Translations under genes and position numbers: made by a program
In this document: positions 363 through 34,878 of the stretch, piece by piece
How positions within the stretch are numbered: the first letter of the stretch is position 1
Layout of the letters: each line of letters opens with the position of its first letter
IMG/VR virus record: IMGVR_UViG_3300048838_001813
Span: 1-34,878 of that record
DNA from: a virus
DNA length: 34,878 bases
Direction: 5' to 3' (one strand)
Notes under the pieces: model-generated
The model's database searches: none
The model's input: only the letters and a program-made list of their open reading frames with translations
What the model was told of the DNA's origin: nothing

Positions 363-396
363 TGTACGAGAAACTGCAACTATCTACAAACGCCCA

Positions 397-12404: not shown

Positions 12405-13735
12405 GGTCGTTCAGTTCGGGTCATAGCAGCAACATGCGTATCAAAGGCCACAGCTTCCACAGCGCAAGCAGCAGGGCCGTGCCCAGGGCATACCAGGCCC
12501 ACTTGGGCGTAACGGGCACCTCTACGCGCTCGTAGCGCGTATGGTCCACCGTATGCGCCTGGTACTCCTTCTCCCAGCGATCCCACAGCGTAGCGGCCAG
12601 CGCCGTGCTGTCGCAACCCCCGCTGTGTATCAGGGTGCCACCTGTGATCACCACGGTGCTCCAAGCCCGGTCGCTGCGTGCCGTGGTAGGCGGCAGGTCC
12701 GTGCCCGGCGGCGGCAGTGGAAGCGAAGCCTCCACGTGGCTGCCCGGCACTTGTATCAAAGTATCGTGCGGCTGCACGCCGGAGCGCACTTCCGTCCGCA
12801 GCGTATCGGACCGGCTCTCCACCAGTGTCCGCTTGCCCCGGCATCCCGATACCAGTATGGCCATGGCCGCGATAAAGCCCAAGAGGGCCAGCGCCAGGGC
12901 TTTCTCCCCTGATGTAGTTCGTGATCGCATGTACCTTGCTTAGTTGCCGCCTGCGGGCATAGACACCATCGCCGTCCCGGCTGCCCGGTGCGCTGGTGTT
13001 GCCTTCAATGGTGTTGATGTAACCGCCGTCCAATGAGGACACGAGGCCCACATGGCCTACGCGGCCAAGGCGGGCGAAGTAGATGCTGAACACGTCGCCG
13101 GGGCGTGGGGAGCGGGACGCCTTACGGGGCGTCCACACCTGGTCCGCAACGGAGGCGAACGCAGGGCTCCACGCACTTCTCGGATTCCTTACCCCGCAGG
13201 CGGACAGTTCGTAGCTCACAAAGGCAGCGCACCAGGGGTGGCCAGCGCCGAGCCCGACGTGGGCTAAGTAGCGTTCCACCTCGGGGCCGTCGTTGTGGCC
13301 GGAGGCTTCACGCACGCCCACGTCGGCTGCGGCATTCATCACCACGCAAGTGCGTTGGTCGGTGGCCAAGGTGGCCGCCTGGGCCGGGCTGCAACCGCTA
13401 AGGGCAAGCAGCACCAGGCCGAAGAAAAGGATGGCATACATGCGCAGGCTGTACCTGCTGCGCTGTTCCACCGGTAGCTTATCGAACGCGTCGATGGTGT
13501 CGTGCTTCAGGTGCTGGTAGGCTTTCGGGGCCACGGCCCGCAGGCCCACCCAGGCCGCCAGGCTGTAGATCACCAGCCGCAGCACCGTCCAGAACACCGT
13601 CTCGGTCTGCGCGGCCAGGTCGTACTGGCCCGTGGTGGGCCACACGTTGGCACTCACGTACCGCAGCCCCAGCAGCACCGTGCTCAACAGCACGATCACC
13701 ACCAGTTCAGCCTTGTATCCGCGCAGTTCCTTCAT
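12401..13735 (-). CDS. Membrane-anchored CHAP endolysin with holin-like N-terminus
   Basis: Start at 13735, before the first membrane segment; the longer frame overlaps the capsid gene. The 444-residue product has hydrophobic segments at about 11-25, 48-66 and 99-113, the last followed by LSGCSPAQA, which resembles a lipobox. Residues 130-277 form a CHAP amidase/endopeptidase domain: Cys169 in HPWCAAFVSY, His228 in RVGHVGLVSS and Glu244 in NTIEGNT. It would cleave cell-wall peptide links. After residue 277 the frame runs on for 167 residues of His/Arg/Gly/Ala-rich sequence over the spanin-like gene and stops in ATGA overlap with the next gene. This tail may be a true extension or a frame that lost its stop. 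Confidence 0.7.
   Translation of the reverse strand: MKELRGYKAELVVIVLLSTVLLGLRYVSANVWPTTGQYDLAAQTETVFWTVLRLVIYSLAAWVGLRAVAPKAYQHLKHDTIDAFDKLPVEQRSRYSLRMYAILFFGLVLLALSGCSPAQAATLATDQRTCVVMNAAADVGVREASGHNDGPEVERYLAHVGLGAGHPWCAAFVSYELSACGVRNPRSAWSPAFASVADQVWTPRKASRSPRPGDVFSIYFARLGRVGHVGLVSSLDGGYINTIEGNTSAPGSRDGDGVYARRRQLSKVHAITNYIRGESPGAGPLGLYRGHGHTGIGMPGQADTGGEPVRYAADGSALRRAAARYFDTSAGQPRGGFASTAAAGHGPAAYHGTQRPGLEHRGDHRWHPDTQRGLRQHGAGRYAVGSLGEGVPGAYGGPYALRARRGARYAQVGLVCPGHGPAACAVEAVAFDTHVAAMTRTERP
12421..12930 (-). CDS. Unimolecular spanin-like lipoprotein, embedded in the endolysin frame
   Basis: A 169-residue protein with an N-terminal hydrophobic signal ending in a lipobox (AILVSGC, Cys30), a proline- and charge-rich middle (residues 60-120), and a C-terminal transmembrane segment (about 144-165, starting WAWYALGTALLLALW). 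An outer-membrane lipid anchor at one end and an inner-membrane segment at the other is the layout of phage u-spanins such as T1 gp11, which fuse the membranes in the last lysis step. It lies entirely inside the reading frame of the CHAP endolysin gene, in another frame. Neighbourhood with the lysin supports the role; sequence similarity to known spanins was not tested. Confidence 0.6.
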   Translation of the reverse strand: MRSRTTSGEKALALALLGFIAAMAILVSGCRGKRTLVESRSDTLRTEVRSGVQPHDTLIQVPGSHVEASLPLPPPGTDLPPTTARSDRAWSTVVITGGTLIHSGGCDSTALAATLWDRWEKEYQAHTVDHTRYERVEVPVTPKWAWYALGTALLLALWKLWPLIRMLLL

Positions 13736-13772
13736 TCGTTCGTTCAGCGTTGTATAGCTCTTGTAGCAGCGA

Positions 13773-14816
13773 TCAGACGATGGCGCTCGCAATGGCACCG
13801 AACCCGAGGTTCTTCACCGGCCCGATGATGTGGTACTGCGTGAACCCGACCTCCGTCTGGCGCATGCGCGGGTTGCTGTACTTGTCCTGGTAGAACATCT
13901 CCGTGGTGCCGCTGGCCTGGAAGGCGCGGGGCGCGAAGAACAGCGTGCTCGCGTTACGGTCCGTGGAAGGGGCTGCGGCAGCGCCGAACGCCTTCTTGGC
14001 ACCAGCATCGGTGAACACGTTACAGAACACATCCTCGAAGATCTCGAAGCCGTACTGCGGGATCACCTCGCCGGTCTTGGTGTTGTTGTACCGGATCTGG
14101 AAGCTCAGGTCCTCCATGAGCAGGTCGGCCACGTGGTCGCCGCAGAGCACCAGGATACGTCCGGCCTGGGGCACCTTCAGCGCGTCCAGACGGGCCTTCA
14201 AGGTGATCAGGTCGGCCACCTTCAGCCGCTTGCGGCCAGCGCCGTTGTCCGCCCCCGTGGTGGCGATCACCGGCGTGGACGCCGTGTTGCCCGCCGGGCA
14301 GAGGTTCCATAGGCCATGCTCACCGGTGCGCTCGATCAGCACCTCCTTATGCTGTGAGATCACGCTGCCCTCCTTGTCGTAAGGAAGTGCCTCGATCTCC
14401 GAACGGCTCACGCTGGTGTTCGTGGTCTCGTACTTGTTCAGCGCGAGGATGGTGGTATCGTCCGTGCGTGATGCCACGGCGATGGGATAGGAACTGTTGT
14501 TGATCAGCACCGTGGGATCAGCGCCCACCTCCTGTACGTTGATGGCGTTGTTGCCCACGTATTCGTCCTTGCGGGGAATACGGCTCGGCCAGCTGCGCGT
14601 GGCACGGAAGGCACGGAGCAGCTCCGCCTCCCACATCTGCTTCAGCACGACCGCCATGGCCGCGCCCTGCGGCAAGCGCACGAGGGAGAGCAGCGCACTG
14701 GCCACCAGCAACCCGGCAAGTACCGGAAGGAAGGAGAGGCCGGTGGCCATGGAGATCGCCACGGCCATGAGCACGGCCACTACGAGGCTGGAAAGGAAAT
14801 TGAGAATGTGTTTCAT
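13773..14816 (-). CDS. Major capsid protein with hydrophobic N-terminus
   Basis: A 347-residue protein following the protease/scaffold gene, the position of the Mu capsid gene T. The part after residue 55 fits an HK97-fold capsid: LKQMWEAELLRAFRATRSWP, then NAINVQEVGADPTVLINNSS, ILALNKYETTNTSVSRSEIE, and the late part with MRQTEVGFTQYHIIGPVKN. The first 50 residues are strongly hydrophobic, with two membrane-like segments at about 7-25 and 28-46, followed by RLPQG. That is uncommon for a capsid protein; the segment may act as a scaffold-like or membrane-targeting part that is cleaved in maturation. An internal ATG at residue 54 (MAVVLKQM) could give a soluble form. Confidence 0.75.
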   Translation of the reverse strand: MKHILNFLSSLVVAVLMAVAISMATGLSFLPVLAGLLVASALLSLVRLPQGAAMAVVLKQMWEAELLRAFRATRSWPSRIPRKDEYVGNNAINVQEVGADPTVLINNSSYPIAVASRTDDTTILALNKYETTNTSVSRSEIEALPYDKEGSVISQHKEVLIERTGEHGLWNLCPAGNTASTPVIATTGADNGAGRKRLKVADLITLKARLDALKVPQAGRILVLCGDHVADLLMEDLSFQIRYNNTKTGEVIPQYGFEIFEDVFCNVFTDAGAKKAFGAAAAPSTDRNASTLFFAPRAFQASGTTEMFYQDKYSNPRMRQTEVGFTQYHIIGPVKNLGFGAIASAIV

Positions 14817-16126: not shown

Positions 16127-16588
16127 ATGGCCAAGGATGGAGCAAGGGCGAATGCCCGCATCATGTTCGTGGAGCAGGGCAAGAGCCGAAAGGAGATCGC
16201 CGAGCTGCTGAAGGTCCGCGAAAAGACCGTGGGGGAATGGGCCTCCAAAGGCAACTGGGAGGACCAGCGCACCGCGCACCTCACCAGCAGCCAACAGGTG
16301 GAACGCAGCCTGAAGGGCTTGATCCAGACCTACACGGAACAGCTCACCGTGATGGAGCGGGAAGGTGATGGGGACCCCAGGGAAAAGGCCCGATTGGTGG
16401 ACGCACTGGTAAAGACCAGCAAGACCCTGGAGGTGGTGCGCAACGAGAACGACATCAGCCTGAGCGCTCGCATCCGTGTGATGGACTGGCTCTTCAACGC
16501 TTTGCAGAAGCACGACGAAAAGCTGCACAGGGATCTGATCGACTTTCAATCCACGATGCTTGAAGAGGCGGCACGCCTGCACGCATGA
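16127..16588 (+). CDS. Small terminase subunit (HTH, Mu gp27-like)
   Basis: The start at 16127 (MAKDGARANARIMFVEQ) is preferred because it follows gggaggg by about ten bases; a longer frame adds seven residues. The 153-residue protein has an N-terminal helix-turn-helix (residues 13-45: KSRKEIAELLKVREKTVGEW), typical for DNA-recognising small terminase subunits, then a helical oligomerisation part with EKARLVDALVKTSKTLEVV. It selects phage DNA and hands it to the large subunit, whose gene overlaps its stop through ATGA. Confidence 0.75.
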   Translation: MAKDGARANARIMFVEQGKSRKEIAELLKVREKTVGEWASKGNWEDQRTAHLTSSQQVERSLKGLIQTYTEQLTVMEREGDGDPREKARLVDALVKTSKTLEVVRNENDISLSARIRVMDWLFNALQKHDEKLHRDLIDFQSTMLEEAARLHA

Positions 16589-18126
16589 GCAAAGTCGTAC
16601 GCGAGCGCAAGCGCGGCCTGCGCGAACTGGAACAGTACCGGCGCAAGCTGGAGATACTGCGGGCCAGCAAGGGCTTCAACCTCCACGAGACGGCGGATGA
16701 GCAACACCGCCGCATAGAGGCCGCGAAGGCCGACCCCGTCACCTTCGCTGAAACTTACCTGCCCGACTATTGCACCGCCAAGTGCGCCACCTTCCAGGAC
16801 CAGGCCGCACGCCGCATCCTGCGCACCAAGGACATCCGTATCGTATTGCGTTGGGCACGCGCCCACGCGAAGAGCGTCTGGGCCGACATCATCATCCCGC
16901 TTTGGCTATGGGCTAAAGGCGAACCGATGTACCTGGTCATCATTGGCAGCAGTTTCGATAAGGCAAAGACGCTTTTGAGCGACGTTCAAGCGGAGTTCGA
17001 GGCCAACCCCAGATTGCTGCACGACTTCGGTGAACAGCAGATGGACGGCAACTGGACCGACGGCTACTTCAGCACCAAGGGCGGCTTCGTCGGTGCCGCG
17101 CTGGGCATGGGCCAAAGCGTAAGGGGCCTGCGCAAACGCGCCCTGCGCCCCACCTACATCGTGCTGGACGACACCGAGACGCGGCAGCTCTGCAAGAACC
17201 CCAAGCGCCTTGCCGAAATGGTCCACTGGGTGGAGACGGACGTGCTCGGTACCATGGACGGGGCCACCCAGCGCTTAGTGATCGCCAACAACCGTTTCGC
17301 CCCGGACATGATCCAGGTGCGGCTTTTGGAGAAGCACAAGGACTGGATATGCCACGAAGTGAAGGCATACGACCCTGTGACCTTCCTGGCCACGTGGCCG
17401 GAGAAGTACGGCACCGACGACACCTACTGGCGGGACATGGAGCGCAAGAACGGCAGCTTGGCCGTCCGCGCCGAATACCTCAACGAGCCGCACGTGGAGG
17501 GCAGCATCTTCACCGACGATCTCTTCAACTGGGGCAGGCCACCGCGCATCGACCACTTCGTGTGCATCGTGGGCCATTGGGACGTCGCCTACGCCGGGAC
17601 CCGGACGGCGGACTACAACGCCGTCCGCGTATGGGGCTTGGACAAAGACAACCGGTACTGGCTCATCGGCACCTATTGCAAGCAGAGCAAGATGGCCGCC
17701 GCCGTGCGCTGGATGGTGCAGTTCGACAAGGCGCTGCCCGACAGCGCCGTGATACGCTGGCAGTATGAAAGCCAGTTCTGGAACGACGAGCTGGAACGCA
17801 CCGTGCGCGATGTATGCCATGAAGAGGCGCACGAGCTGCGCTTGGCCCAGGCCGAGCGCGGCAAGGCCAATAAGTACGAACGCATCCTTACCCTGCATCC
17901 CTACTATCAGAACGGGCGCGTGTGGTACAGCGATAAGGCGAAAAGCGAGAGCGACGCGCTGGTGGCCCTGGCCCAACTGAAAGGCATCGAGCCCGGCTAT
18001 TCCTCTCATGACGATGCCCCCGATGCCGACGAGCAGGCCATCGGCGTACTGAGCCGCGAAGTGCTGGCCCGCGAATGGAACGACCCCGTGCTCGGCGAGC
18101 GCCAACGCCCCAAAAACATCTGGTAA
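16585..18126 (+). CDS. Large terminase subunit (Mu gp28-like)
   Basis: A 513-residue packaging ATPase and nuclease. The N-terminal ATPase part has a Walker A-like RWARAHAKSVW at 89-99 (the classical lysine is replaced or shifted, as in many large terminases), a Walker B YIVLDDTE at 191-198, and IVIGSSF-like strands before it. The C-terminal RNase H-type nuclease has the first aspartate in GHWDVAYAGTRTADYN (Asp333, Asp343) and the last acidic group in SSHDDAPDADEQAIG near 475-485. It drives DNA into the prohead and cuts it, in transposable phages by headful packaging with host flanks. Length fits the family. Confidence 0.9.
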   Translation: MSKVVRERKRGLRELEQYRRKLEILRASKGFNLHETADEQHRRIEAAKADPVTFAETYLPDYCTAKCATFQDQAARRILRTKDIRIVLRWARAHAKSVWADIIIPLWLWAKGEPMYLVIIGSSFDKAKTLLSDVQAEFEANPRLLHDFGEQQMDGNWTDGYFSTKGGFVGAALGMGQSVRGLRKRALRPTYIVLDDTETRQLCKNPKRLAEMVHWVETDVLGTMDGATQRLVIANNRFAPDMIQVRLLEKHKDWICHEVKAYDPVTFLATWPEKYGTDDTYWRDMERKNGSLAVRAEYLNEPHVEGSIFTDDLFNWGRPPRIDHFVCIVGHWDVAYAGTRTADYNAVRVWGLDKDNRYWLIGTYCKQSKMAAAVRWMVQFDKALPDSAVIRWQYESQFWNDELERTVRDVCHEEAHELRLAQAERGKANKYERILTLHPYYQNGRVWYSDKAKSESDALVALAQLKGIEPGYSSHDDAPDADEQAIGVLSREVLAREWNDPVLGERQRPKNIW

Positions 18127-18127
18127 C

Positions 18128-18631
18128 ATGCCCACTGCCTACACCTTCCTTACCGATAGCGACGTGCGCAGCCGCGTCCGCGACGAACACCTGAACGACC
18201 TGGTGGACCGCGACACCTTAGTGGTAGCACCCGACCCTTCCGATACCGAGGCCTATGCCGCCTACATCGCCGCGCTGAACGCCAGCGAGACCGTGAAGGT
18301 GAGCTGCGAGAGCATGGCCATTGCCAAGGTGCGCAGCGTGTTGAGCAACCGTTTCGACACCACGGGCCTGCTCTCCGCCACCGGCGAGGACCGCCACCCG
18401 CTGCTGGTGCTCCACGTGCTCAACGTGATGGTATACCTGCTCTACCGGCGCATCAACCCGCGCAAGGTGCCCGAAGTAGTGAAGGAGGACCACGACGAAA
18501 CCCTCGCCTGGTTGGACCGCGTGTCCGACGGGCGGGAAGCCCCGGACTTCCCGCCGGTGGAACCACCCGAGGACAATGCGGGATTACCCCGTGTCGGGGG
18601 TGCATGGATACCCAAGGGCCATTACTTCTGA
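18128..18631 (+). CDS. Head-tail connector, DUF1320 (Mu gp36-like)
   Basis: A 167-residue protein one base after the terminase stop. It opens with TAYTFLTDSDVRSRVRDEHL, the typical beginning of DUF1320/gp36 connector proteins ('..fit..dl...i....l..l'), and has a helical middle with ESMAIAKVRSVLSNRFDT and LVLHVLNVMVYLLYRRINPR, which fits their helical bundle. The C-terminus is proline- and acid-rich. In Mu the gene lies after the capsid gene; here it has moved to the packaging block. Confidence 0.7.
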   Translation: MPTAYTFLTDSDVRSRVRDEHLNDLVDRDTLVVAPDPSDTEAYAAYIAALNASETVKVSCESMAIAKVRSVLSNRFDTTGLLSATGEDRHPLLVLHVLNVMVYLLYRRINPRKVPEVVKEDHDETLAWLDRVSDGREAPDFPPVEPPEDNAGLPRVGGAWIPKGHYF

Positions 18632-18791
18632 CCATGACGGACCAAAGGAGGGCCGAGAACCCGTTAAACTGTGTTGAAATAGAACGATACCGCCTTGGGT
18701 GGCCCTCCCCTGCCTTCAAGGAATTTGAGGCCCGTAAATCGAATAATCCAAAGGGCGGTTCTACCCGCCCGGAAAACAGACCGAGCAAGCC
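18632..18791 (+). promoter_or_regulatory. Structured intergenic stretch before membrane genes
   Basis: In a phage with nearly no gaps, this 160-bp stretch holds no convincing gene. It has a perfect 8-bp inverted repeat ggagggcc (18647-18654) / ggccctcc (18701-18708) enclosing an AT-richer loop, and a 6-bp hairpin gggcgg-ttctac-ccgccc (18753-18770). It may carry a promoter, a terminator or an RNA element for the two membrane genes that follow. Nothing in it matches a known RNA family that I recognise. Confidence 0.4.
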
Positions 18792-19013
18792 ATGAAGAAA
18801 TACAACTCCTTTTTCGGCTGGGTGGCCACCACCCAGCGCTTCACACTGGTGTTCATCCACCTGGTGCTCCCCGCCATGGCCTGGAGCCTCCTTACCGACC
18901 GGCCTGAACCGCCTTGGGACATCGTGGCCTGGGTCATGGTCGCATTGCCCGCCATCGGCTACTGGGCGGGCAACTGGTGGTACTGGACCAAGCGCTTGGA
19001 CCGGGGCCGCTGA
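18792..19013 (+). CDS. Small two-segment membrane protein
   Basis: A 73-residue protein with two hydrophobic segments at about 15-33 and 43-62 and a basic C-terminus (WTKRLDRGR). Its stop overlaps the next start as TGATG. Tryptophan is frequent (WWYW near residue 63), typical of membrane interfaces. It sits between the DUF1320 connector and portal genes, which is not a usual lysis position. It could be a holin, antiholin or superinfection exclusion factor. No family recognised. Confidence 0.65.
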   Translation: MKKYNSFFGWVATTQRFTLVFIHLVLPAMAWSLLTDRPEPPWDIVAWVMVALPAIGYWAGNWWYWTKRLDRGR

Positions 19014-19453
19014 TGACCTGGCTGCTCCCTTTCGTGCTTTACGCGGCAGCTTATGCCGCCGGATTGCTGGTGGCCATCCCGCAGGCCATCCTTATCCAGA
19101 GCAACAAGCCCATACGCCACGGCCTGTGGCTCTCCGCCTACATCGTGGTGGGCTTCCTTTCCGCATGGATGACCATGCCCAGCGCCGCATGTGCCTTGCT
19201 GGCCAGCGCCGGTATGGCCGGTGTGTTCAGTGCCTCCTTCCGCTTCTACCTCAACGACCTCCGCGAACTGCCCACCGGCTACTTGGGGCCGGATCCCGCC
19301 AACGGTCCCGCGCCCGGACGCAGCCGTTACGACATGCTGATGTGGCGCACGGCGCGGTACTTCCGCTGCCCGCCGGTGCGGGTGGCACTTTTTCTTGAAC
19401 TCGGCACGGCAGCAGCCGTGTACATCATTCTGGTGCTCGAATGCAACAACTGA
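19013..19453 (+). CDS. Multi-segment membrane protein
   Basis: Start at 19013, coupled to the upstream stop (TGATG). The 146-residue protein has about four hydrophobic segments: 3-22, 37-54, 56-74 and 122-141. Between the third and fourth is a soluble loop with LNDLRELPTGYLGPDPANG and GRSRYDMLMWRTARY. It ends 13 bases inside the portal gene. With the 73-residue protein it forms a membrane pair inserted in the packaging block. Possible roles are superinfection exclusion, holin partner or membrane recruitment of prohead assembly, which would be interesting given the hydrophobic capsid N-terminus. Not recognised as a known family. Confidence 0.65.
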   Translation: MTWLLPFVLYAAAYAAGLLVAIPQAILIQSNKPIRHGLWLSAYIVVGFLSAWMTMPSAACALLASAGMAGVFSASFRFYLNDLRELPTGYLGPDPANGPAPGRSRYDMLMWRTARYFRCPPVRVALFLELGTAAAVYIILVLECNN

Positions 19454-22107
19454 ACCGCCCCAATATCCTGAGCCGCATCCGTGCGGCCTTCACCCCCATG
19501 CTGCTGCATCCTGCACAGATGCAGAGCTTCCGCATGCCCGACCTGGAGCGCTGGGCCATGCCCCACCGCAGTGTGGACATGGAAGACTGGGAGGCCGCGC
19601 TGAACATGGCCAAGAACCTGTTGCGCCCGGACCGCACCCGCCTGATGGACCTGTACGACAGCATCCTGAAGGATGCCCACTTGGGCAGTGTGATGGAGAC
19701 GCGGGTATTGCGCGTGGTGCGGGGCAAGTTCATGCTCACCGATGCCGACGGCAAGCCCCGGCCCGACCTGCTGCACCTGTTGGAAACGCAGTGGTTCGAG
19801 GACTTCCTCCAGTACGTCACCGAAGCCCTCTTCTTCGGCCACAGCCTCATTGAGCTGGGCGAACTGGCACGGCCCGGCGAGCTGCGGCAGGTGAACCGGA
19901 TAGACCCGCGCAACGTGCTGCCTTACCAAGGCATCGTGGCGCGGCGGCGCGGCGAGGAGACCGGCTACCTCTTCCGCGAGGAACCCTTGCGCAGCTACCT
20001 CATTGAAGTAGGCCGCCCGGACGACCTCGGCCTGTTGGAGCGCGTCGCCCCCGTGGCCGTGGTGAAGAAGTACGCCATCGGGAGCTGGAGCGCCTTCGTG
20101 GGCACCTACGGCATCCCCAGCCGCTGGATAAAGACGCGGGGCAACGATGCCCGCCGCGTGAAGCAGTTGGAGACCGTGATGCAGAACATGATGAGCAGCG
20201 CCTATGCCATCATACAGGGTGATGAAGAGTTCGGCATTGCGCCCACGCCCGCCGGGGACCCCGTGAAGGTGTTCGACGACCTGGTGAGCCGCATGAACAG
20301 CGAGATCAGCAAGCGCATCCTCGGCCAGGACGGGACCACCGACAACAAAGATGCCAGCGGCACCTACGGCAGCCTGAAAGTACTGGCAGGCGTGGCCGAG
20401 GACCGCCATGCCGCCGACAAGGCCAGTGCCGCCTACGTGGTGAACCAGGAGCTGCTGCCGCGTTTAACGGCCCTTGGATACCCGTTCAAAGGCATCCGCT
20501 TCGCGTGGGACGCCATGCAGGACCTCAGCCCCACCGAGATCGTGGACGCGGTAAGCAAGCTGGGGCTGGTGTTCGACATCGACCCGGAGTACATCGAGAA
20601 GCGCACAGGCATCCGCATCCTGGGGGCGCGAAGGATGCCGGGGGAACTGGGGCCGGAAGGAGGCAACCCGCCGGGCAGCGGCAGGCAGACCGGGGCACCG
20701 GAACCCAAGCCGGAAGAAGAGACCGGCGACGACACGGAAGAGGACGGCGCAGGCGTGACTGCGCATTGGGGCGGCGAAGCGCCCACCTGCGCTATCTGCG
20801 GTGGTGGAGGCATGGCCGAGGCTGCTGCCGTGCCGCCCGTACCCATCGAAGCCGTGGAGAGCCTGCTGCGCTCCGCCTTCGACGGGGCGGCGTTCGACGC
20901 GGCCTACTTCGATGCCATCGCCAACCTGTACGTGGCGGAACTGGACAGGACCTGGAACCCGGCCATGCTCAATGTAGGTACCGCAGCCCCCCAGCACGTG
21001 GCACACGCGCTGATGGAGTCGAACCTGTACCAGTTCAGCGGACTGAAGACACTGGCCATCGCCCTGGATGTGAACGCACACGCCAAGGAGGGCGGCACCT
21101 TCGCCACCTTCAAACGCCGCGTGGACGAGAGCGGACTGATCGAGAAGTACAATGTGCATCAGCTCCGGGCCGAATACACCAACGTGGCCATGAGCGGCAT
21201 ACAGGCCGGGCGGTATTACCAGATGCAGCAGACCGCCGATGTACTGCCCTATGGTGAGTATGTCACCGTGGGCGACCTGCGCGTCCGCGCCGCACATGCC
21301 GACCTGAACGGGAAGATATGGCCGCTGGACCACGATGCCTGGAAGTCCATTTGGCCGCCCAACGGATGGAACTGCCGTTGCACCGTGCTGCCCACGGAGG
21401 CCGGGAAGAGAGGGAAAGCTGCGGACGACCAATGGGACCAGGCCCAAGCGGAACTGAAGCGCAGCGGGGAATGGAACCAGATGGCCAAGGGCGGCTTCCA
21501 GGGCAACCGCGCACAGAGCGGCACCATCTTCGACCTTGGCAGCTATCGCAAGGACCTGGCCAAGAATGCCGGGCGGAAGAGACTGGACAAGCTCAACGTG
21601 GAGGACTCATACGGGCGCAAGGACATGGACATGGACACGCTGATAAAGCGGCCAGGACTCCCTACCATTACGCCACAGGTCGCCGATGAGGCCGGATACA
21701 AACCCTGGTTCATCACGCAGCGTGATAAGCGCAGCGACGACAAAGGCCGGGCCATCTTCAATGACTACCGGGAGCGGCCTTGGGCGCTGGACCTCTCAAC
21801 CCTCAACCGCCATGCCGGAAAGGAGTACAATGCTGGCAGACGCTGGGAGTACGTCCATGAGATCCCGAACATCCTGCGCGGGCCTGACGAAGTGTGGGCG
21901 AAGAAGGACAGGGGCGGACGGACCTCTTGGCAATTCATCAAATACTACCAAGGTGAGGCGATCGTCGTTCGTGCCGAGATCCCCAAGACCGCGGAGCTGC
22001 GCGGCGGTGTACTGGAAGTGACAAGCTGGTACAAGCTCGACGCAAGATCGGAACACGCCGTCCGGAGCGGAACACTCATAAAGAAGATGCCTGCGCAAAC
22101 CAACTAA
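19441..22107 (+). CDS. Portal (DUF935) - Mu F head protein - nuclease-like C-terminus fusion
   Basis: An 888-residue protein. Residues 1-400 are a DUF935 portal (Mu gp29): MEDWEAALNMAKNLLRP, FGHSLIELGEL, VKKYAIGSWSAFVGTYGIP, GQDGTTDNKDASGTYGSLKV. A linker (400-460) is Gly/Pro/acid-rich and has a CAIC at 450-453. Residues 480-655 are the Mu F-like minor head domain, with the signature HADLNGKIWPLDHDAWKSIW and NGWNCRCTVLP. Residues 775-885 look like the BECR-fold (barnase/EndoU/colicin/RelE) nuclease-like domains known at the ends of Mu F proteins: EYVHEIPNILRGPDEVW, SWQFIKYYQGEAIVVRAEIP, SGTLIKKM. The first two parts form the portal vertex; the last may be an injected toxin. Portal and F are separate genes in Mu. 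Confidence 0.8.
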   Translation: MQQLNRPNILSRIRAAFTPMLLHPAQMQSFRMPDLERWAMPHRSVDMEDWEAALNMAKNLLRPDRTRLMDLYDSILKDAHLGSVMETRVLRVVRGKFMLTDADGKPRPDLLHLLETQWFEDFLQYVTEALFFGHSLIELGELARPGELRQVNRIDPRNVLPYQGIVARRRGEETGYLFREEPLRSYLIEVGRPDDLGLLERVAPVAVVKKYAIGSWSAFVGTYGIPSRWIKTRGNDARRVKQLETVMQNMMSSAYAIIQGDEEFGIAPTPAGDPVKVFDDLVSRMNSEISKRILGQDGTTDNKDASGTYGSLKVLAGVAEDRHAADKASAAYVVNQELLPRLTALGYPFKGIRFAWDAMQDLSPTEIVDAVSKLGLVFDIDPEYIEKRTGIRILGARRMPGELGPEGGNPPGSGRQTGAPEPKPEEETGDDTEEDGAGVTAHWGGEAPTCAICGGGGMAEAAAVPPVPIEAVESLLRSAFDGAAFDAAYFDAIANLYVAELDRTWNPAMLNVGTAAPQHVAHALMESNLYQFSGLKTLAIALDVNAHAKEGGTFATFKRRVDESGLIEKYNVHQLRAEYTNVAMSGIQAGRYYQMQQTADVLPYGEYVTVGDLRVRAAHADLNGKIWPLDHDAWKSIWPPNGWNCRCTVLPTEAGKRGKAADDQWDQAQAELKRSGEWNQMAKGGFQGNRAQSGTIFDLGSYRKDLAKNAGRKRLDKLNVEDSYGRKDMDMDTLIKRPGLPTITPQVADEAGYKPWFITQRDKRSDDKGRAIFNDYRERPWALDLSTLNRHAGKEYNAGRRWEYVHEIPNILRGPDEVWAKKDRGGRTSWQFIKYYQGEAIVVRAEIPKTAELRGGVLEVTSWYKLDARSEHAVRSGTLIKKMPAQTN

Positions 22108-22170
22108 AAAGGAACCCCCGTGTTAGTAGGGAGACCGGTCCATTGGCCACGCAGGCAACACCACAAAGAT

Positions 22171-22704
22171 ATGCCGATAAAGGGAATGGACCAAGTGATG
22201 CGCAAGGCGCTGGCCCTGCAAAAGGCCATGGAGCGCCAGGTGCCGGTGAAGATGCAGGCGGCGGCGGTGAAGGTGTTCCGCGCCAACTTCACCGCCCAAG
22301 GCTATGTGGACAATGGCGTGGACCCGTGGGCCGCCCGCAAGGTGATGCCCAAGATGTCCCGCCCGCGCCCTTCGCCCAAGATACTGATACGCTCGGCCCT
22401 GCTGATCAACAGCATCCGGCCCAATGGCCAGGCCAGTTGGAACCGCATCAGCGTAAAGGCGGGCGGTCCGCACGTGCCCTACGCGCAGATACACAATGAT
22501 GGCGGTACCATCCGGGGCACCTTCGGCGTACGCCAGCACGAACGGCGCAGCCCCAAGGGCAAGAAAAGCAACGTGCGCCAGCACACCCGCACGGTGAACA
22601 CCACCATCCCCCAGCGCCGCTACATGGGCAACAGCCGCGCATTGGGCACGGCCATGCGCCAGGAGATCATGAAGGCTGTCGCTAAAACCATGCTGAACAA
22701 ATGA
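22171..22704 (+). CDS. Virion morphogenesis protein (Mu gpG-like)
   Basis: The start at 22171 (MPIKGMDQVMRKALALQK) avoids a basic, unlikely N-terminal extension and leaves a 63-base gap after the portal fusion. The 177-residue protein has the gpG / phage virion morphogenesis pattern: a helix, then VKVFRANFTAQGYVDNG followed by W-A-R, ILIRSALLINSIRP, VPYAQIHNDGGTIRG and a C-terminal RRYMGNS motif. It acts in joining head and tail. It is coupled to the next gene by ATGA. Confidence 0.75.
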   Translation: MPIKGMDQVMRKALALQKAMERQVPVKMQAAAVKVFRANFTAQGYVDNGVDPWAARKVMPKMSRPRPSPKILIRSALLINSIRPNGQASWNRISVKAGGPHVPYAQIHNDGGTIRGTFGVRQHERRSPKGKKSNVRQHTRTVNTTIPQRRYMGNSRALGTAMRQEIMKAVAKTMLNK

Positions 22705-23249
22705 ACTGGATCATCGAAGAGAACCTCGACCCCACCTTACAGGACTGGAGCGAGGCCTACAAGGAGCTCTGCGCCATCATCCGCGCCAAGCTGCCCGAGG
22801 TAAAGCACGTGGACCTCTACTACGGGCAGGACCAGGTGGTGGGCACGGACGGCAACTGGATCCCCTTCCGCGCCCCCGCCGTCTTCCTGGAGTTCAACGC
22901 CGCGCAGGTGAGCGACCTGGGCGACAACACCCAGCAACTGCTGATGGACATTTCCATGCACCTCTGCGTGGAGACCGTGCAGGATACCCACGCGGGCAGC
23001 GCCGGGCAGCGCCGCGCCCTGGAGTTCACCGCCCTGCTGCGCAAGCTGCACGTGGCCATGCACGGGGCCAGTGGCGACCACTTCAGCCCATTGGGCCGTA
23101 CCGGACTGGCCCGCAAGGCCGATGCGCCGCCCTACATGTACATGTATACCCAGACCTTCCAGTGCGTGGTGCTGGACAACAGCGCCAGCAAGCAGTGGGA
23201 CTTTATTGGGCCGGATGCGCTGGGGCCGGAGGTGGAGAAGGAAGACTGA
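22701..23249 (+). CDS. Tail terminator/completion protein (Mu gp37-like)
   Basis: A 182-residue protein coupled to gpG by ATGA. It has an N-terminal helix (SEAYKELCAIIRAKLPEVKH), then beta strands with IPFRAPAVFLEFNAAQVSDL and LLMDISMHLCVETVQDTH, and a C-terminal strand YMYMYTQTFQCVVLDN. That is the general pattern of phage tail terminator or gp37-type connectors, which are often diverged. It is the last gene of the rightward late transcript and converges with the lysogenic unit with one base between the two stop codons, so no terminator fits between them. Confidence 0.5.
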   Translation: MNWIIEENLDPTLQDWSEAYKELCAIIRAKLPEVKHVDLYYGQDQVVGTDGNWIPFRAPAVFLEFNAAQVSDLGDNTQQLLMDISMHLCVETVQDTHAGSAGQRRALEFTALLRKLHVAMHGASGDHFSPLGRTGLARKADAPPYMYMYTQTFQCVVLDNSASKQWDFIGPDALGPEVEKED

Positions 23250-23250
23250 G

Positions 23251-23838
23251 TCAATTCGCCGGATCGATCATCAACATGCGGTAGAACGCAGTTGGGGCTA
23301 TGATGGTGAAGGAAGCGCCGCCAATCGTGGTCGTAGCACTATCCGTATCGAAATTGCTCTGCACCCAGTCGTGGGCCGCTTGCGGGTCAGCTCCGGTATA
23401 CGGAACACTGGCAATAAAAGACAGGTATTCCACCCCGGCCTGAATGACCTTACCGGCACCATCCACCATTACGGTGGCGGTCACATTGTCAACCTCCTTT
23501 GTACCCGGACCTGCGACATCCGCCGAGAAGGTAATGGAAGGCATCTCTTGAATACAGGTGCGCACGGAATACCCATCCTTGTGGATCTTTTTGATCACGA
23601 AGCCGCGCTTCTCCAAGCTCCGGTATACGTCAACCGGATTTAGGCCGGGAATGACGCGGTGCTCGACCTCTGCGGGAGCAGGCCCGCTCTCTGCACTGGC
23701 AGCCTTGGCCTTCCTCGCAGCAGCGGCCTCGGGTGTATCTGTTGCGATCACGGTGATCACGAGCAAGGCGATCAGTCCCCCTATGATGGAGAGGGTGATC
23801 TTCGCTCCCTTGGAAAATCCTTTTTTCGGCGTATCCAT
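23251..23838 (-). CDS. Membrane-anchored protein downstream of repressor, unknown
   Basis: A 195-residue protein with a short basic N-terminus, one membrane segment at about 12-32 and a long soluble part, probably outside the cytoplasm. After an alanine-rich linker (33-55) there is a compact domain with NPVDVYRSLEKRGFVIKKIH and VRTCIQEMPSITFSADVAG. No family recognised. Its position after the repressor and the second membrane protein, on the same strand, suggests expression in the lysogen. Candidates are superinfection exclusion or host modification. It is not needed by analogy with Mu structure genes. Confidence 0.6.
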   Translation of the reverse strand: MDTPKKGFSKGAKITLSIIGGLIALLVITVIATDTPEAAAARKAKAASAESGPAPAEVEHRVIPGLNPVDVYRSLEKRGFVIKKIHKDGYSVRTCIQEMPSITFSADVAGPGTKEVDNVTATVMVDGAGKVIQAGVEYLSFIASVPYTGADPQAAHDWVQSNFDTDSATTTIGGASFTIIAPTAFYRMLMIDPAN

Positions 23839-23853
23839 GGAGGCGAATGTAGG

Positions 23854-24303
23854 TCATCTTGCTGGTCGGCACCGGCGGCAAGGCTCATAACCCTCAGCTT
23901 TCGCCTCGCTGAGCGAAGTGGCGTAACTGCTCCTGCGCAGACTGCTGCAACCTGCACGGTGGTACTTCTCCCCGGTACTGGTGGTATACACGGTGATGCT
24001 CTTCTCTGGGTCAAGCTGCGGCGCAGGCTCCACTGGCGGTGGTAGCGGGGTCGCGAGAACCGGAACGGACAAGGGCGTCACAGCGCTGTCCACATGAGCA
24101 CTGTCCACAACCGTCGTCACAGCCGCAGTATCCTTAGTAGTGGCGCTTGTCTTTGGCGCGGCGGACGGCTCCGGGTCCATAATGGAGCCAATGATCACAA
24201 GCAACAGCACAAGGCCGACCCACGATGCGCAGCCTATGCCGGTCCATTTGAGCCATGGTCGCCAGCGGGACTGCTTTGTTTCTACCTGTGGCATAGCTGG
24301 CAT
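23854..24303 (-). CDS. Membrane-anchored protein with Ada-like zinc-binding C-terminus
   Basis: A 149-residue protein with a basic N-terminus, a membrane segment at 22-41, a Thr/Pro-rich linker (45-98) and a C-terminal domain beginning ITVYTTSTGEKYHRAGC. Its pattern His115, Cys119, Cys142, Cys145 with SLSEAKAEGYEPCRRC resembles the Ada-like metal-binding fold often found beside secreted nucleases and surface proteins. It follows the repressor with three bases between, so they should be co-transcribed in the lysogen. The role is unknown; a cell-surface change against other phages is one idea. Confidence 0.65.
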   Translation of the reverse strand: MPAMPQVETKQSRWRPWLKWTGIGCASWVGLVLLLVIIGSIMDPEPSAAPKTSATTKDTAAVTTVVDSAHVDSAVTPLSVPVLATPLPPPVEPAPQLDPEKSITVYTTSTGEKYHRAGCSSLRRSSYATSLSEAKAEGYEPCRRCRPAR

Positions 24304-24306
24304 ACC

Positions 24307-25032
24307 TCAACGCTTTTTCAGTTTGGCCACGTCCTGCTCCACGCGCACCAGTCGCACATTGAAGCTATGCCGCTGGTCTCCGGGGTTCTCCCTGATCAGC
24401 GCCAGCACATCATACACCATGGCGCTACCTTTTATGGTATATGGCGCAACGTCCGGATTGTCGCTCTCGCACAGGATCATCTCTTCCGCGAAGTCCACGC
24501 GCAGACGCTTGGCGCTTGCCCCTTCCGCCGTCACCACCACATACACCTGGCCCGGCCTCACCTGCTCCTTGGGACTATCGCATTTCCGCACCACCAACCA
24601 ATCACCATCCAAGATGGTAGGCTCCATGCTATCACCCGTGACCTGAATGGCCAGCAATCCGCCGCCCCGGAAGCGTTCCCCCGGCAGGGCCATGCGCGGC
24701 TGCTTGTCCAAGAACTCGCGCTGGCCTTGATGCTTCAGTAGCCCCGCCGCCACTTTGCTCCGCAAGGCGATGATGTTGCCCTCGGCGGTCGGGATGTCAA
24801 CTTTGGTAGAGGTGTCGTGCCGCATCATCCGCCCCTTTCCGGTGAGAAGCCAGTCGGCGTCAAGCTCCGGGAACCGCTGAACGATGGTCGCAATCGTATC
24901 GCTATGCAAGCCCTTACCTGCGGCGAGTGCCTTGTGAACGGTGGCTGGCTTTAGCTCTGTCTGCACGGCAAGCTGGTTCGGGTTCAACCCCTTTCGCTCC
25001 ATGAATTGCTTAAGCCGTGTCGTTATCGACAT
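24307..25032 (-). CDS. Prophage repressor, HTH with S24 (LexA/CI-like) peptidase
   Basis: A 241-residue repressor. Residues 5-50 hold the helix-turn-helix (NPNQLAVQTELKPATVHKAL). Residues 85-220 are the S24 peptidase domain: Ser135 in VTGDSMEPT, Lys175 in GASAKRLRV, and a likely self-cleavage Ala96-Gly97 in KVAAGLL. So it should be cut under SOS-type DNA damage and release the early genes. It is unlike Mu c, which is controlled by ClpX; a LexA-like repressor makes the phage inducible, as in D3112/B3-type or lambda-like systems. The start is next to the operator region and has a leader of about ten bases. Confidence 0.85.
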   Translation of the reverse strand: MSITTRLKQFMERKGLNPNQLAVQTELKPATVHKALAAGKGLHSDTIATIVQRFPELDADWLLTGKGRMMRHDTSTKVDIPTAEGNIIALRSKVAAGLLKHQGQREFLDKQPRMALPGERFRGGGLLAIQVTGDSMEPTILDGDWLVVRKCDSPKEQVRPGQVYVVVTAEGASAKRLRVDFAEEMILCESDNPDVAPYTIKGSAMVYDVLALIRENPGDQRHSFNVRLVRVEQDVAKLKKR

Positions 25033-25048
25033 AGGTAAGTGGATAAAA

Positions 25049-25080
25049 GTTTATACACTGAATTTGACATTCGTATCAAC
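25049..25080 (-). promoter_or_regulatory. Repressor promoter (candidate)
   Basis: On the minus strand a TTG (within gttgata, top 25074-25080) is followed after 21 bases by TATAAAC (top 25049-25055), a fair fit to the Bacteroidota -33/-7 layout. Transcription would begin near 25042, about ten bases before the repressor start. Confidence 0.4.
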
Positions 25081-25095
25081 TTTGGTGTACGTTTG
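25063..25095 (+). promoter_or_regulatory. Early promoter with Bacteroidota -33/-7 boxes
   Basis: TTTG at 25063-25066 and TACGTTTG at 25088-25095 fit the Bacteroidota consensus TTTG / TAnnTTTG with a spacing of 21 bases. Transcription would begin near 25100, so the first gene would be nearly leaderless if it starts at 25104, or start at the internal ATG 25152. Confidence 0.55.
25064..25079. promoter_or_regulatory. Putative operator dyad
   Basis: TTGACATTCGTATCAA is an inverted repeat of the form TTGAYA-N4-TRTCAA. It overlaps the -33 elements of both divergent promoters, so one bound dimer could affect both sides. An inverted copy of its inner part, acgaatgt, lies at 25113-25120. Confidence 0.45.
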
Positions 25096-25103
25096 CTCCC
25101 GCA

Positions 25104-25352
25104 ATGAGAAGCACGAATGTAGCACAAGCCGACTTGCAGCCGAGCGCAACTATGCGGGCACGCATCCTGCGCGGCTTGCGTCGAGGCGACCAAGCCCGCA
25201 TAGCCGAGGCCGTGGGCACCGCGCCGGAGTATGTCAAACAGATAATGCGCTACCGCCCGCAGGCCAAGAGCGCATTGGCCCGCCGCGTATGGCAGGCCGC
25301 CGACCGCCTGCTAAAGGATCGCGCACGGCTTAATAACGACATGCGCCCATGA
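25104..25352 (+). CDS. Small DNA-binding protein, Ner/Cro-like position
   Basis: An 82-residue basic protein, first gene of the early transcript. The middle part has a helix-turn-helix-like run (RRGDQARIAEAVGTAPEYVK) followed by an Arg/Ala-rich helix. Mu has ner here, a small repressor of early and repressor promoters. An internal start at 25152 would give 66 residues and leave a normal leader after the promoter. Its stop overlaps the transposase start by ATGA. Confidence 0.6.
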   Translation: MRSTNVAQADLQPSATMRARILRGLRRGDQARIAEAVGTAPEYVKQIMRYRPQAKSALARRVWQAADRLLKDRARLNNDMRP

Positions 25353-27394
25353 TGGTGCGCGATGGCATGGTGCTGCTGGAATACGCCGAACTGGTGAACG
25401 ACGCTTGCGTGAGCAAGCCGACGTACGATAAAGCCTCGCGTGACGGGCGTATCGCGGTGGTTCGACGCGGCGGAAACGACCACCCCGCACTGGTTGAATG
25501 GGCCAGTCTGCCACAGCGCTACAAGGATATGGTGCGTCACCACCTGGGCGGCGACCCGGAAGTATTGGCCATGGCCCAGCAGGTGGAGCAGCACTTGGTA
25601 ACGGTGCCGGAGGACGTGCAATACCTGGACAGCTACAAGGCCGAGAACGGGCTGGGGCTGTCCCAAGCAGCCCGCCAGCAGTTGAACCTGGCCTGCCGCT
25701 TGGTGGCCCTGCTGGCCGAGGCCACGCAGGTGTACAACGAGGGAGGCACGGCTAAAGTGAGCGCCACTTACGGCATGGGTACCATGGCCTTGAAGCAGGC
25801 CGTGGCCGCTTATGTGAAGGCCAACCGCAAGCGCCTGCCACCGGCGTTTCCGGCCAGCTTCGCCCGCTTGGAGACGCGCAAACGCGCCTACATGCACGCC
25901 CGTCAACAGGGCATGTCCGGCGCTTCCTCCTTGGTGCATGGCGGGCAAGGCAACAACAACGCGGCCAAGGTGGCCACGCCCGAACAAGCGCAACTGTTGC
26001 GCCTGCTGGCCGCTCGGCCACAGAACCACAGCAAGCGGCGCATCGCGGCGGACTACAACGCCGTGGCCACAACGCAAGGCTGGCCCAAGCTGACGGCCAA
26101 CACCGTCCGGCGCTTCCTGGCCGACGGAGCCAACGGACGTACCGTAATGCTCTATGCCAAGGGCGCGGCCCAATACCACAACACCTACGGCATCGTGGTA
26201 CACCGCAGCCGTCCTACACAGCCGACCTATCTGTGGGTGCATGACGCCACGGATTACGAACGCCTGTACCAGAAAGAGGTGAACGGCAAAGCCACCTACC
26301 ACCACCGGAAAAAGGTGATGGTGGTGGTGGACCCGCACAGCTGGTACCCTGTGGGCTACGCCATCGGCGATGCGGACACGATCACCTTGGCGCAGGAAGC
26401 GATAGGGAACGCGGTGCGGCACATGCGTGAGCTCACGGGGCAGTACGCCATTCCTTATCAGGTGCAGAGCGACCGCATGGGCCACAAGGCGCTGAGTGCG
26501 TGGTACGGTGCCATGGATGTGAAGTACACCCCGGCAGCGGCCCGCAACGCCCGTGCGAAGATCATCGAGCCATGGTTCCGCCAGCACAACGACCACTATG
26601 CCAACCACGGTGTGAACTGGAGCGGCCACAACGTGACCTCCAAGAAGAGCAACCAGCCCAACCCGGACGCGCTGAACACGAACCGGAAGCTCTTCCCGAA
26701 CGAGGCGACGGTGATCGAGGAGATACACGAGGCCATCGGTCGCGAACGTGCCGACAAGATGGAGGCCTTCCGCGCCGCGCTTGCCGCCATGCCCGAAGGT
26801 GCGCTGCGCACCATCAGCCGCGAGCGCTTCCTGGAATGGTTCGGCACCCGCCACGGCTGGACCAACGAACTCACCAACCTGGGCCTGTGCCCCACGCTGC
26901 TTGGCGAAGAGCGCCCCTACCAGCTGCTCACGCCGGACTTCCAACAGCACGTGGGCCTGGCCTTCCAGGTCCACTACGACCCCGCCGACCTGGGCGACGT
27001 GCTGGCCACGGCGAACGAAGGCAGCATACGCTACCTGCTCCCCGCTGTGGTGCCGGTGCCCATGGCCTTGATGGACCACACCCCGGAGAGCCGTGCGCAA
27101 CTGGCAGGCGTGGAAGCCTTCAAGAAGGGCTTGAACAAGGAGGCCATCGATCAGGTGCTCAACGACCAGGAGCAACTGCGCCAACTGGCCGACATGCTGC
27201 TGGCCGATGCCATGCCGCGCCTGCGGAAGACGGACCGCCACACCGACGACCTGGTCACGCTATCGCCGGAGGAAGAAGTGGCCACCAAAGCCTACCTCAC
27301 CGAGAACGGAAGCCACAAGGCCGCCGTGGATACCGCCCGCCACGAAGCGCAGCTCCGCAAGGACATCGAGCGCTGGGCCGAAGACCAATTCTAA
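25349..27394 (+). CDS. MuA-like DDE transposase
   Basis: A 681-residue transposase. The N-terminal half is DNA-binding, with helix-turn-helix parts (residues 10-35 and 105-160). The catalytic RNase H-like core has Asp299 in LWVHDATDYERLY, Asp375 in YQVQSDRMGHKAL and Glu407 in ARAKIIEPWFRQHN, giving a DDE triad with 31 residues between the last two, shorter than in MuA. The C-terminal part (about 480-681) has a beta-barrel-like region (RPYQLLTPDFQQHVGLAFQV) and a helical tail for contact with the MuB-like protein. It cuts the phage ends and joins them to target DNA, both in lysogeny and replication. The product is close in length to MuA (663). Confidence 0.9.
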   Translation: MMVRDGMVLLEYAELVNDACVSKPTYDKASRDGRIAVVRRGGNDHPALVEWASLPQRYKDMVRHHLGGDPEVLAMAQQVEQHLVTVPEDVQYLDSYKAENGLGLSQAARQQLNLACRLVALLAEATQVYNEGGTAKVSATYGMGTMALKQAVAAYVKANRKRLPPAFPASFARLETRKRAYMHARQQGMSGASSLVHGGQGNNNAAKVATPEQAQLLRLLAARPQNHSKRRIAADYNAVATTQGWPKLTANTVRRFLADGANGRTVMLYAKGAAQYHNTYGIVVHRSRPTQPTYLWVHDATDYERLYQKEVNGKATYHHRKKVMVVVDPHSWYPVGYAIGDADTITLAQEAIGNAVRHMRELTGQYAIPYQVQSDRMGHKALSAWYGAMDVKYTPAAARNARAKIIEPWFRQHNDHYANHGVNWSGHNVTSKKSNQPNPDALNTNRKLFPNEATVIEEIHEAIGRERADKMEAFRAALAAMPEGALRTISRERFLEWFGTRHGWTNELTNLGLCPTLLGEERPYQLLTPDFQQHVGLAFQVHYDPADLGDVLATANEGSIRYLLPAVVPVPMALMDHTPESRAQLAGVEAFKKGLNKEAIDQVLNDQEQLRQLADMLLADAMPRLRKTDRHTDDLVTLSPEEEVATKAYLTENGSHKAAVDTARHEAQLRKDIERWAEDQF

Positions 27395-34119: not shown

Positions 34120-34878
34120 ATGGTACTCAATCGCCTCGGCAACAAGCGGCGCATGGCCGCACGTATCTTGCCTCATATCCCGCCGCACCGTCATTGGATA
34201 GAACCCTTCTTCGGAGCGGGCGGTATGTTCTTCGCGAAGCCCAAGGCGGAGCGCAACATCGTCAACGACATGGACGAGGAGGTCTACAACCTCTTCTGCG
34301 TCATCCTGGACAAGCCGGAGGAATTGGCGGCGGCATGGGCATCCATGCCGTTGCACGAGGCCCTTTGGCGCAGGTGGAAGCACGAGACACCGACCGACCC
34401 GGTATGGAGGGCGGTACGCTTCCTGTTCCGCAGCAACTTCGGCTTCTTAGGCAAGCCGCACACGCAGCGGCTGAACAGCAAGAACGCCAAGCGCAGCCTC
34501 CAGGAGCGCATACAGGCCACCCGCGACGCGCTCTACGATGTGGAGTTCACCGGGTGTGACTTCCGCACCATGCTGGGCCGCATCCCGCTCTCGCCGCGTG
34601 AGCGCGAACTGGCCTACGTCTACGCGGACCCGCCCTACCTCGGAACGTCCAACAACTACGGCGCGGCCTCCTGCTGGACCGAGCTGGATACACGCGACCT
34701 GGTCTCAACGCTGGTAGCCAGCGGCCTGCGCTTCGGCATGAGCGAGTTCGACCATCCAATTGTAGTGGAACTGGCGCTGGAACATGGCCTGCATGTGATC
34801 AACCTCGGCGAGCGGAAGAACCTGAACAACCGCCGGACGGAACTCCTGCTCACGAACGTGCATCAACAAGGCCGTTGA
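34120..34878 (+). CDS. Dam-type (D12 class) DNA adenine methyltransferase
   Basis: A 252-residue enzyme with motif I at 29-38 (PFFGAGGMFF, S-adenosylmethionine binding) and motif IV DPPY at 170-173 in YADPPYLGTS. The order is that of the D12 class N6-adenine methyltransferases (Dam, T4 Dam, DpnM). Residues 60-160 form the target recognition part. It probably methylates phage DNA against host restriction or changes gene timing. It is the last gene in the window and ends at its last base; whether more phage genes follow is unknown. Confidence 0.85.
   Translation: MVLNRLGNKRRMAARILPHIPPHRHWIEPFFGAGGMFFAKPKAERNIVNDMDEEVYNLFCVILDKPEELAAAWASMPLHEALWRRWKHETPTDPVWRAVRFLFRSNFGFLGKPHTQRLNSKNAKRSLQERIQATRDALYDVEFTGCDFRTMLGRIPLSPRERELAYVYADPPYLGTSNNYGAASCWTELDTRDLVSTLVASGLRFGMSEFDHPIVVELALEHGLHVINLGERKNLNNRRTELLLTNVHQQGR

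Follow-up and report, generated by a model that had tools for sequence, protein, structure and literature searches.

The two open reading frames behind the repressor gene of a Mu-like phage, ORF A and ORF B, are predicted to encode proteins that display a domain outside the cytoplasmic membrane. What is new in them is twofold: ORF B belongs to a phage-borne protein family, and exported Ada-like domains of the kind found in ORF A, often carried together with nucleases, are recurrently associated with lysogeny markers in other phage records. We tentatively favor the explanation that the phage acquired ORF A and ORF B independently of each other, as accessory (moron-type) genes whose products would work at the envelope against incoming DNA or an injecting phage, a possibility that we hold at somewhat under an even chance.

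A Mu-like phage of Bacteroidota

The window analyzed here is the entire IMG/VR record IMGVR_UViG_3300048838_001813, a viral sequence of 34,878 bases. Its nearest relatives mark it as a transposable, Mu-like phage of Bacteroidota. Pfam domains were found in one ORF with Portal_Mu and Mu_F, in a separate Phage_tail_S gene, in Gp36, terminase-like and protease genes, and in DUF6046 and tape-measure genes. The early block contains the transposase gene:

25349..27394, plus strand: MuA-like transposase (rve 1e-4 and Mu-transpos_C 0.002, each below the cut-off)

The nearest relative of this protein is the MuA-like protein of Elizabethkingia phage TCUEAP3 (31% identity), and scans of viral_contigs with MuA and the portal gave no match. 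The portal ORF (888 aa; 19441-22107) is a fusion of Portal_Mu, Phage_Mu_F and a C-terminal PBECR2 nuclease-like domain, whereas the portal and Mu_F lie on separate genes in the phage contig G002. By eye, the first ~390 bases of the window hold a minus-strand open frame for a PKD-like surface protein, a host gene that is interrupted. Two direct repeats, AACGAAGCGTACA, follow this frame at positions 397 and 420 (window 1-432) and probably mark a Mu-type transposition end in host DNA. The opposite end carries a D12 adenine methyltransferase gene (34120-34878), the stop codon of which is formed by the final three bases of the record. On the phage-plasmid pPLIM01, the ORF B relative also has an annotated adenine methylase beside it, and an ORF that resembles a methylase by eye is located at the end of G002.

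ORF A and ORF B lie in line with the repressor

The genes and the one promoter-like site around the pair are as follows:

22701..23249, plus strand: convergent structural gene with a weak tail-terminator match (Pfam Phage_tail_terminator, 0.046; phrog_6911, 4e-25)
23251..23838, minus strand: ORF B, 195 aa, open frame confirmed
23854..24303, minus strand: ORF A, 149 aa, open frame confirmed
24307..25032, minus strand: S24/LexA-type repressor with HTH and Peptidase_S24, 241 aa (Pfam Peptidase_S24, 6.7e-14; phrog_4 'transcriptional repressor', 1.4e-21)
25063..25095, plus strand: Bacteroidota-type promoter-like site facing the early genes and away from ORF A and ORF B (the window's single match; chance expectation 0.09)

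The first-pass annotation had placed both genes within a few bases of the repressor on its strand, and the spacing bears this out, with 3 bp between the repressor and ORF A and 15 bp between ORF A and ORF B. The repressor is related to the left-end gene of TCUEAP3 (22%, 9e-12). The stop codon of ORF B is located 1 bp from that of the convergent structural gene, which is itself matched in the Mu-like contig L022 (blastp 6e-4). Neither a terminator-like nor a sigma-70-like site was found in positions 23150-25400, which is compatible with a single operon from which the repressor, ORF A and ORF B would be transcribed together. The promoter-like site was located with a Bacteroidota promoter consensus.

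Both frames are shown to be coding, ORF A through the homology of its C-terminal domain and ORF B through its relatives. The GC content by codon position is 0.58/0.59/0.65 in ORF A, 0.56/0.48/0.66 in ORF B and 0.67/0.43/0.84 in MuA, and the weaker contrast in the pair resembles the pattern of foreign or fast-changing genes. As had been read from the letters alone, a single N-terminal membrane segment followed by an exported domain is predicted for each protein; basic residues ahead of both hydrophobic segments predict an N-in/C-out orientation.

ORF A carries an Ada-like zinc domain

ORF A consists of a basic N-terminal tail, one membrane segment, a Pro/Ala/Thr-rich linker and a C-terminal Ada-like zinc domain. 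The membrane segment and the zinc domain are:

24181..24237, minus strand: ORF A membrane segment, residues 23-41 (Kyte-Doolittle window mean 2.44; AlphaFold helix 26-41)
23863..23997, minus strand: ORF A Ada-like domain, residues 103-147 (PF02805; N-Ada chains; Foldseek 1wpk, probability 0.91)

In the AlphaFold model, residues 101-140 form a block with pLDDT 87-93. By profile and sequence, and less firmly by fold search, the domain resembles the zinc domain at the N terminus of E. coli Ada (PF02805; 1adn, 1u8b and 1wpk). The Ada-like His-Cys3 site noticed on first reading is indeed present. PF02805 (Ada_Zn_binding) matches residues 113-147 with an E value of 8.3e-5 and 23 bits, which is at the limit of its curated cut-off of 23. 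The best PDB matches in the sequence and profile searches are N-Ada (E 0.02-0.05), and the only three matches returned by Foldseek against the PDB are all N-Ada with probabilities of 0.72-0.91, yet with E values of 0.12-0.43. When the domain is aligned to 1adn and 1u8b, the putative zinc ligands H115, C119, C142 and C145 fall on the four zinc cysteines of Ada, and His115 replaces the first of them. C142 and C145 are invariant across a 17-row alignment of Ada-like domains; KYHxAGC itself had served as the search pattern.

The position of Ada to which His115 aligns is Cys38, the methyl acceptor. A histidine at this position makes phosphotriester repair unlikely and zinc binding likely; thus the domain is likely to form a zinc site and would hardly perform Ada-type repair. 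In contrast to E. coli Ada, in which the domain is part of a cytoplasmic regulator, the ORF A domain is predicted to be exported and tethered to the membrane. ORF A has no catalytic domain, as is also the case for the 111-aa protein of L032. A PHROG match to 'Zot-like toxin' (8e-4) was rejected, since it covers the membrane segment and the low-complexity linker.

Exported Ada-like domains recur near lysogeny markers

The set of Ada-like proteins comprised 15 records of the phages collection (12 fetched; H5, H7 and H12 were left out) and 17 viral_contigs loci. A search of 29 records for HTH_3, tyrosine-integrase and resolvase domains, in which HTH_3 rows under the family cut-off were kept when E was <=0.001, gave the marker positions, and 19 of the records were retained for counting. 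The window (the source of the query), G017 (12.6 kb), G020, W06 and W09 (near-duplicates of W04, W05 and W07), and W02 and W10-W13 (fragments of 4.6-16.6 kb, several apparently chromosomal) were dropped; L036, a near-duplicate of L035, is outside the marker set. An HTH_3, tyrosine-integrase or resolvase marker lies within 1.5 kb of the Ada-like domain in 10 of the 19 records (3.1 expected, P 1e-4), within 2.5 kb in 12 (4.4 expected, P ~5e-5) and within 4 kb in 16 (5.9 expected, reached in 0 of 20,000 simulations), where the null is uniform placement and the distance cut-offs were picked after the contexts had been read. A marker on the same strand is found within these distances in 7, 9 and 12 of the 19. 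The three exceptions are W05 and G015, with the nearest marker 13 kb and 67 kb away, respectively, and G019, in which no marker was found.

A hydrophobic 15-mer (mean >=1.9) precedes the Ada-like domain in 18/19 proteins and occurs in 41/237 background ORFs, a contrast that is somewhat flattered by scoring the whole stretch before the domain in the Ada set and the first 60 residues in the background. By Pfam, a nuclease is fused to the domain in seven of the 19 proteins and a metallo-beta-lactamase (MBL) in one. The nuclease is SNase in L002, L004 and L033 (and in L035, outside the 19) and Endonuclea_NS_2, a DNA/RNA non-specific endonuclease, in L024, L040, L042 and L043; the MBL fusion is that of L029 (and of L010, outside the 19). 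These exported proteins of temperate phages share the C-terminal Ada-like domain and the N-terminal hydrophobic segment, and are often encoded near a repressor or recombinase, whereas ORF A lacks the catalytic domain. The gene order is HTH, MBL-Ada, integrase in L029; HTH, zinc-ribbon/TM protein, SNase-Ada, integrase in L004; HTH, TM-Ada, recombinase in RG-TP1; and repressor, 3-TM protein, Ada-like protein in FNU4. Nuclease-free Ada-like proteins of lipoprotein-like or coiled-coil type are encoded in L003, L031, L034 and L037, and the domain is also present on contigs that look chromosomal by eye (L010, L047 and L048).

The first-pass annotation had proposed that the pair are morons with superinfection exclusion or envelope defense as a main hypothesis. 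For ORF A this proposal gains indirect support, because in temperate phages that are not related to one another Ada-like exported proteins recur near a repressor or recombinase, some of them fused to nucleases.

ORF B founds a phage-borne protein family

ORF B consists of one membrane segment, a linker and a compact exported alpha/beta domain:

23743..23799, minus strand: ORF B membrane segment, residues 14-32 (Kyte-Doolittle window mean 2.69; AlphaFold helix 10-32)
23254..23658, minus strand: ORF B exported domain, residues 61-195 (block pLDDT 78-95)

The exported domain is built from a helix, four strands, two helices and three strands, in this order. Nothing of useful significance was found for ORF B in Pfam, PHROGs, NCBIfam or PADLOC, and nothing significant for its relatives in Pfam or PHROGs. 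With PADLOC-DB 2.0.0, neither ORF A nor ORF B matched any family (0) at E values up to 1. The remote homology searches place neither protein in a structural or metabolic family; a clear match to such a family had been named beforehand as what would speak against the moron reading.

A tblastn search of 72,556 plasmids returned a single ORF B match (5e-5), on pPLIM01 of Planctopirus limnophila, which by gene content is a phage-plasmid because it has terminase, portal, capsid and tail genes. Profile searches then added L014, L016 together with L017, and L022. The five relatives are therefore encoded on three Mu-like contigs (L014, L016 and L022), on the phage contig L017 and on pPLIM01, and blastp of ORF B with relatives, run against single small records, gives E values of 3e-23 to 1e-30. 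On the strength of this homology, ORF B founds a previously undescribed phage-borne protein family. The family signature is I-[PK]-G-x-x-PVD-[VI]-Y-x-x-L, and Tyr, Trp and Phe residues are conserved in the C-terminal part. The anchors vary, with a TM-like segment in most relatives and a lipoprotein-like signal with a lipobox-like motif in L014. The pPLIM01 protein WP_013112515.1, annotated as hypothetical, is homologous to ORF B over the exported domain (28-30% identity) and has the same order of anchor, linker and domain. Unlike ORF B in the window, it is encoded between an adenine methylase and an integrase, in a planctomycete host.

No match was obtained by tblastn of the phages collection with the family members from the window, pPLIM01, L014, L016 and L017, and tblastn of the plasmids with family members returned pPLIM01 alone. 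When ORF B was the only query, pattern scans of viral_contigs and genome_contigs gave no relative, and a two-sequence profile found none in genome_contigs; the pattern and profile scans depend on short, near-exact peptides, so that chromosomal relatives may have been missed. The ORF B profile had no match in the five records fetched for the ORF A domain or MuA, which gives no sign of the two genes working together.

Against the PDB, the predicted ORF B fold matches nothing at E 0.001. The best VIA-align matches are a fibronectin fragment (Z 6.5) and B. subtilis YwmB and YjgB (5.5), all below Z 8, the level under which the tool warns of common arrangements. The single fold match below E 0.001 is BFVD A0A8S5RVB8 of Siphoviridae sp. 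ctLeG9 (1.7e-5, TM 0.47/0.50, 18% identity), which bears the name 'ABC transporter periplasmic binding protein' in its own record. A tRNA-splicing endonuclease assignment was rejected, as the sequence matches are weak (E 0.6 and above).

The position of ORF B probably reflects a rearranged early block

In L014, L016/G002 and L022, the ORF B family gene ends a cluster that runs in the early direction and converges with the head-gene block, with no repressor ahead of it. It is separated by 0-2 small genes from the head-gene block, in which the neighboring gene is placed like 22701..23249 of the window. Since ORF B does not follow a repressor in any of the three Mu-like relatives, that position is particular to the window phage and is not a property of the family. 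The earlier statement that both genes lie on the lysogenic transcript thus stands as regards their position behind the repressor in the window, but has no counterpart in any of the three Mu-like relatives as far as ORF B is concerned, and the moron and exclusion reading is weakened for ORF B. The planctomycete relatives are located near integrases, an adenine methylase or tail-like genes, with no evident early cluster. L022 also encodes, separated by two ORFs from the ORF B relative, a reverse transcriptase (327-1310; RVT_1, 5e-19) that is possibly part of a diversity-generating element.

The window shares 34% identity with the three Mu-like relatives in ORF B, compared with 25% in the terminase, 24-26% in the portal and 25-31% in Mu_F where matched, which suggests that ORF B is constrained or was recently exchanged. 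Over positions 16585-27394 the window is a mosaic: the early block (MuA and repressor) matches TCUEAP3, and ORF B and the head genes match G002, L022 and L014. MuA and the portal share a strand in the window but not in Porphyromonas phage010a; nor do the head genes of G002 share one with a transposase-sized first ORF, which we take as MuA, although the window MuA has no blastp match in G002 at the thresholds used. The simplest reading of these arrangements is that an inversion or replacement affected the early block of the window together with the repressor, so that ORF B stayed next to the head block and came to lie behind the repressor, with ORF A between repressor and ORF B. At the left ends of five Mu-like relatives (TCUEAP3, MT835523, phage010a, p00 and Peternella_1), no annotated membrane-anchored gene is present behind the repressor; an unannotated 48-aa ORF behind the Peternella_1 repressor scores as hydrophobic but, being repeat-like, was left out of the gene count.

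Comparison with known exclusion proteins

According to PMC3952083, the superinfection-exclusion lipoprotein Ltp of Streptococcus thermophilus phage TP-J34 is tethered on the outer side of the cytoplasmic membrane, its gene is transcribed while the phage is a prophage, and it blocks DNA injection. ORF A and ORF B resemble proteins of the Ltp and SieA kind in the predicted membrane anchor and exposed domain. As to a tie with the repressor, the two genes lie behind it in the window, a position that is not conserved for ORF B. Ltp is a lipoprotein, its host is Gram-positive, and its effect on DNA injection has been demonstrated, whereas ORF A and ORF B are predicted to be TM-anchored and are putative exclusion proteins. 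Library scans of the two proteins (Pfam, PHROGs, NCBIfam and PADLOC) matched none of the known exclusion families; accordingly we do not class them in such a family, although they may work like one. No open-licence PMC paper that treats Ada-like domains in exported prophage proteins was found by title or start of abstract, and the main text of a 2024 review of superinfection exclusion (PMC11436027) contains neither 'nuclease' nor 'zinc' nor any word starting with 'bacteroid'.

Discussion

In the explanation that we favor, the lysogen would produce both proteins from the transcript of the repressor; the N-terminal helix would hold them in the inner membrane, with the domain displayed on the outer face. 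The Ada-like domain of ORF A, which derives from a fold that grips the DNA backbone and would be tethered to the membrane by a flexible linker, could capture DNA crossing the periplasm and hinder its uptake, as its relatives may do by tethering the same domain to exported nucleases; that the His-Cys3 version binds DNA is presumed. ORF B, by analogy, may interfere sterically or through protein-protein contacts at the injection site, in the general manner of Ltp or T4 Imm and Sp. The operon-like gaps, the recurrence of Ada-like domains near markers and the so far exclusively phage-borne relatives of ORF B argue for this explanation. Against it count the link of ORF B to lysogeny, which is not conserved in L014, L016 and L022, the five relatives with no annotated membrane-anchored gene behind the repressor, the lack of a PADLOC match, the chromosomal-looking contigs with Ada-like domains, and the absence from ORF A of the nuclease that would explain the job of the domain in its relatives. 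The first reading of the locus is a reasonable hypothesis, which in the case of ORF B owes part of its appeal to a chance arrangement of genes.

In a somewhat unlikely alternative, ORF B would be an early lytic gene (for host take-over, or for exclusion of late-comers like T4 Imm and Sp) that was moved behind the repressor by the inversion or replacement of the early block, leaving ORF A as the only lysogeny gene. The end-of-cluster position of its relatives, convergent with the head genes, and the strand relation of MuA and portal in the window, opposite to that in phage010a and G002, fit this account. However, a gap of 15 bp separates the window gene from ORF A, and it runs in the direction of the repressor, which makes read-through likely, and the planctomycete relatives are not in an evident early cluster. 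We regard as unlikely, too, and a little more so, that the pair serves lysogenic conversion without phage exclusion, with the envelope changed for the benefit of the host (metal handling, stress, adhesion or surface protection) and the Ada-like domain acting as a zinc- or surface-binding module. The nuclease-free and chromosomal-looking occurrences of the domain would suit such a role, as would PDB look-alikes of ORF B that are unrelated domains at Z <=6.5, but the nuclease in 7/19 of the Ada-like phage proteins points to nucleic acid, and the relatives of ORF B have been seen on phages and a phage-plasmid only.

A role of the pair in lysis, as holin- or spanin-like proteins, is highly improbable. 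Both proteins are small and membrane-anchored, and the L014 relative has its lipobox-like motif; the CHAP endolysin candidate of the window (12401-13798), however, is not adjacent to the pair, being ~9.5 kb distant from ORF B. The counterpart of this candidate in G002 (36% identity over 147 aa) is likewise far from ORF B and has as neighbors one TM ORF and one lipoprotein-like ORF. The predicted ORF B fold, moreover, is compact alpha/beta with no coiled coil.

Beyond the favored explanation, a wider and quite doubtful proposal is that temperate phages of several phyla share an 'entry guard', a membrane-held, exported zinc domain derived from Ada that would capture incoming DNA, either alone or with SNase, Endonuclea_NS_2 or MBL, and would be expressed with the repressor. 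The window phage would pair this guard with ORF B, a new family of membrane-tethered exclusion proteins ranging from phages of Bacteroidota to those of planctomycetes.

Should the exclusion reading be right, superinfection exclusion would gain an envelope-level mechanism built from a repurposed DNA-repair zinc domain, and the modular series of the domain alone and the domain with a nuclease would be testable. The ORF B family, with no significant Pfam or PHROG match, is conserved enough to offer a way into the activities of Mu-like Bacteroidota phages at the envelope. Even on a reading other than exclusion, it needs explaining why exported Ada-like nucleases recur close to the repressors and recombinases of phages.
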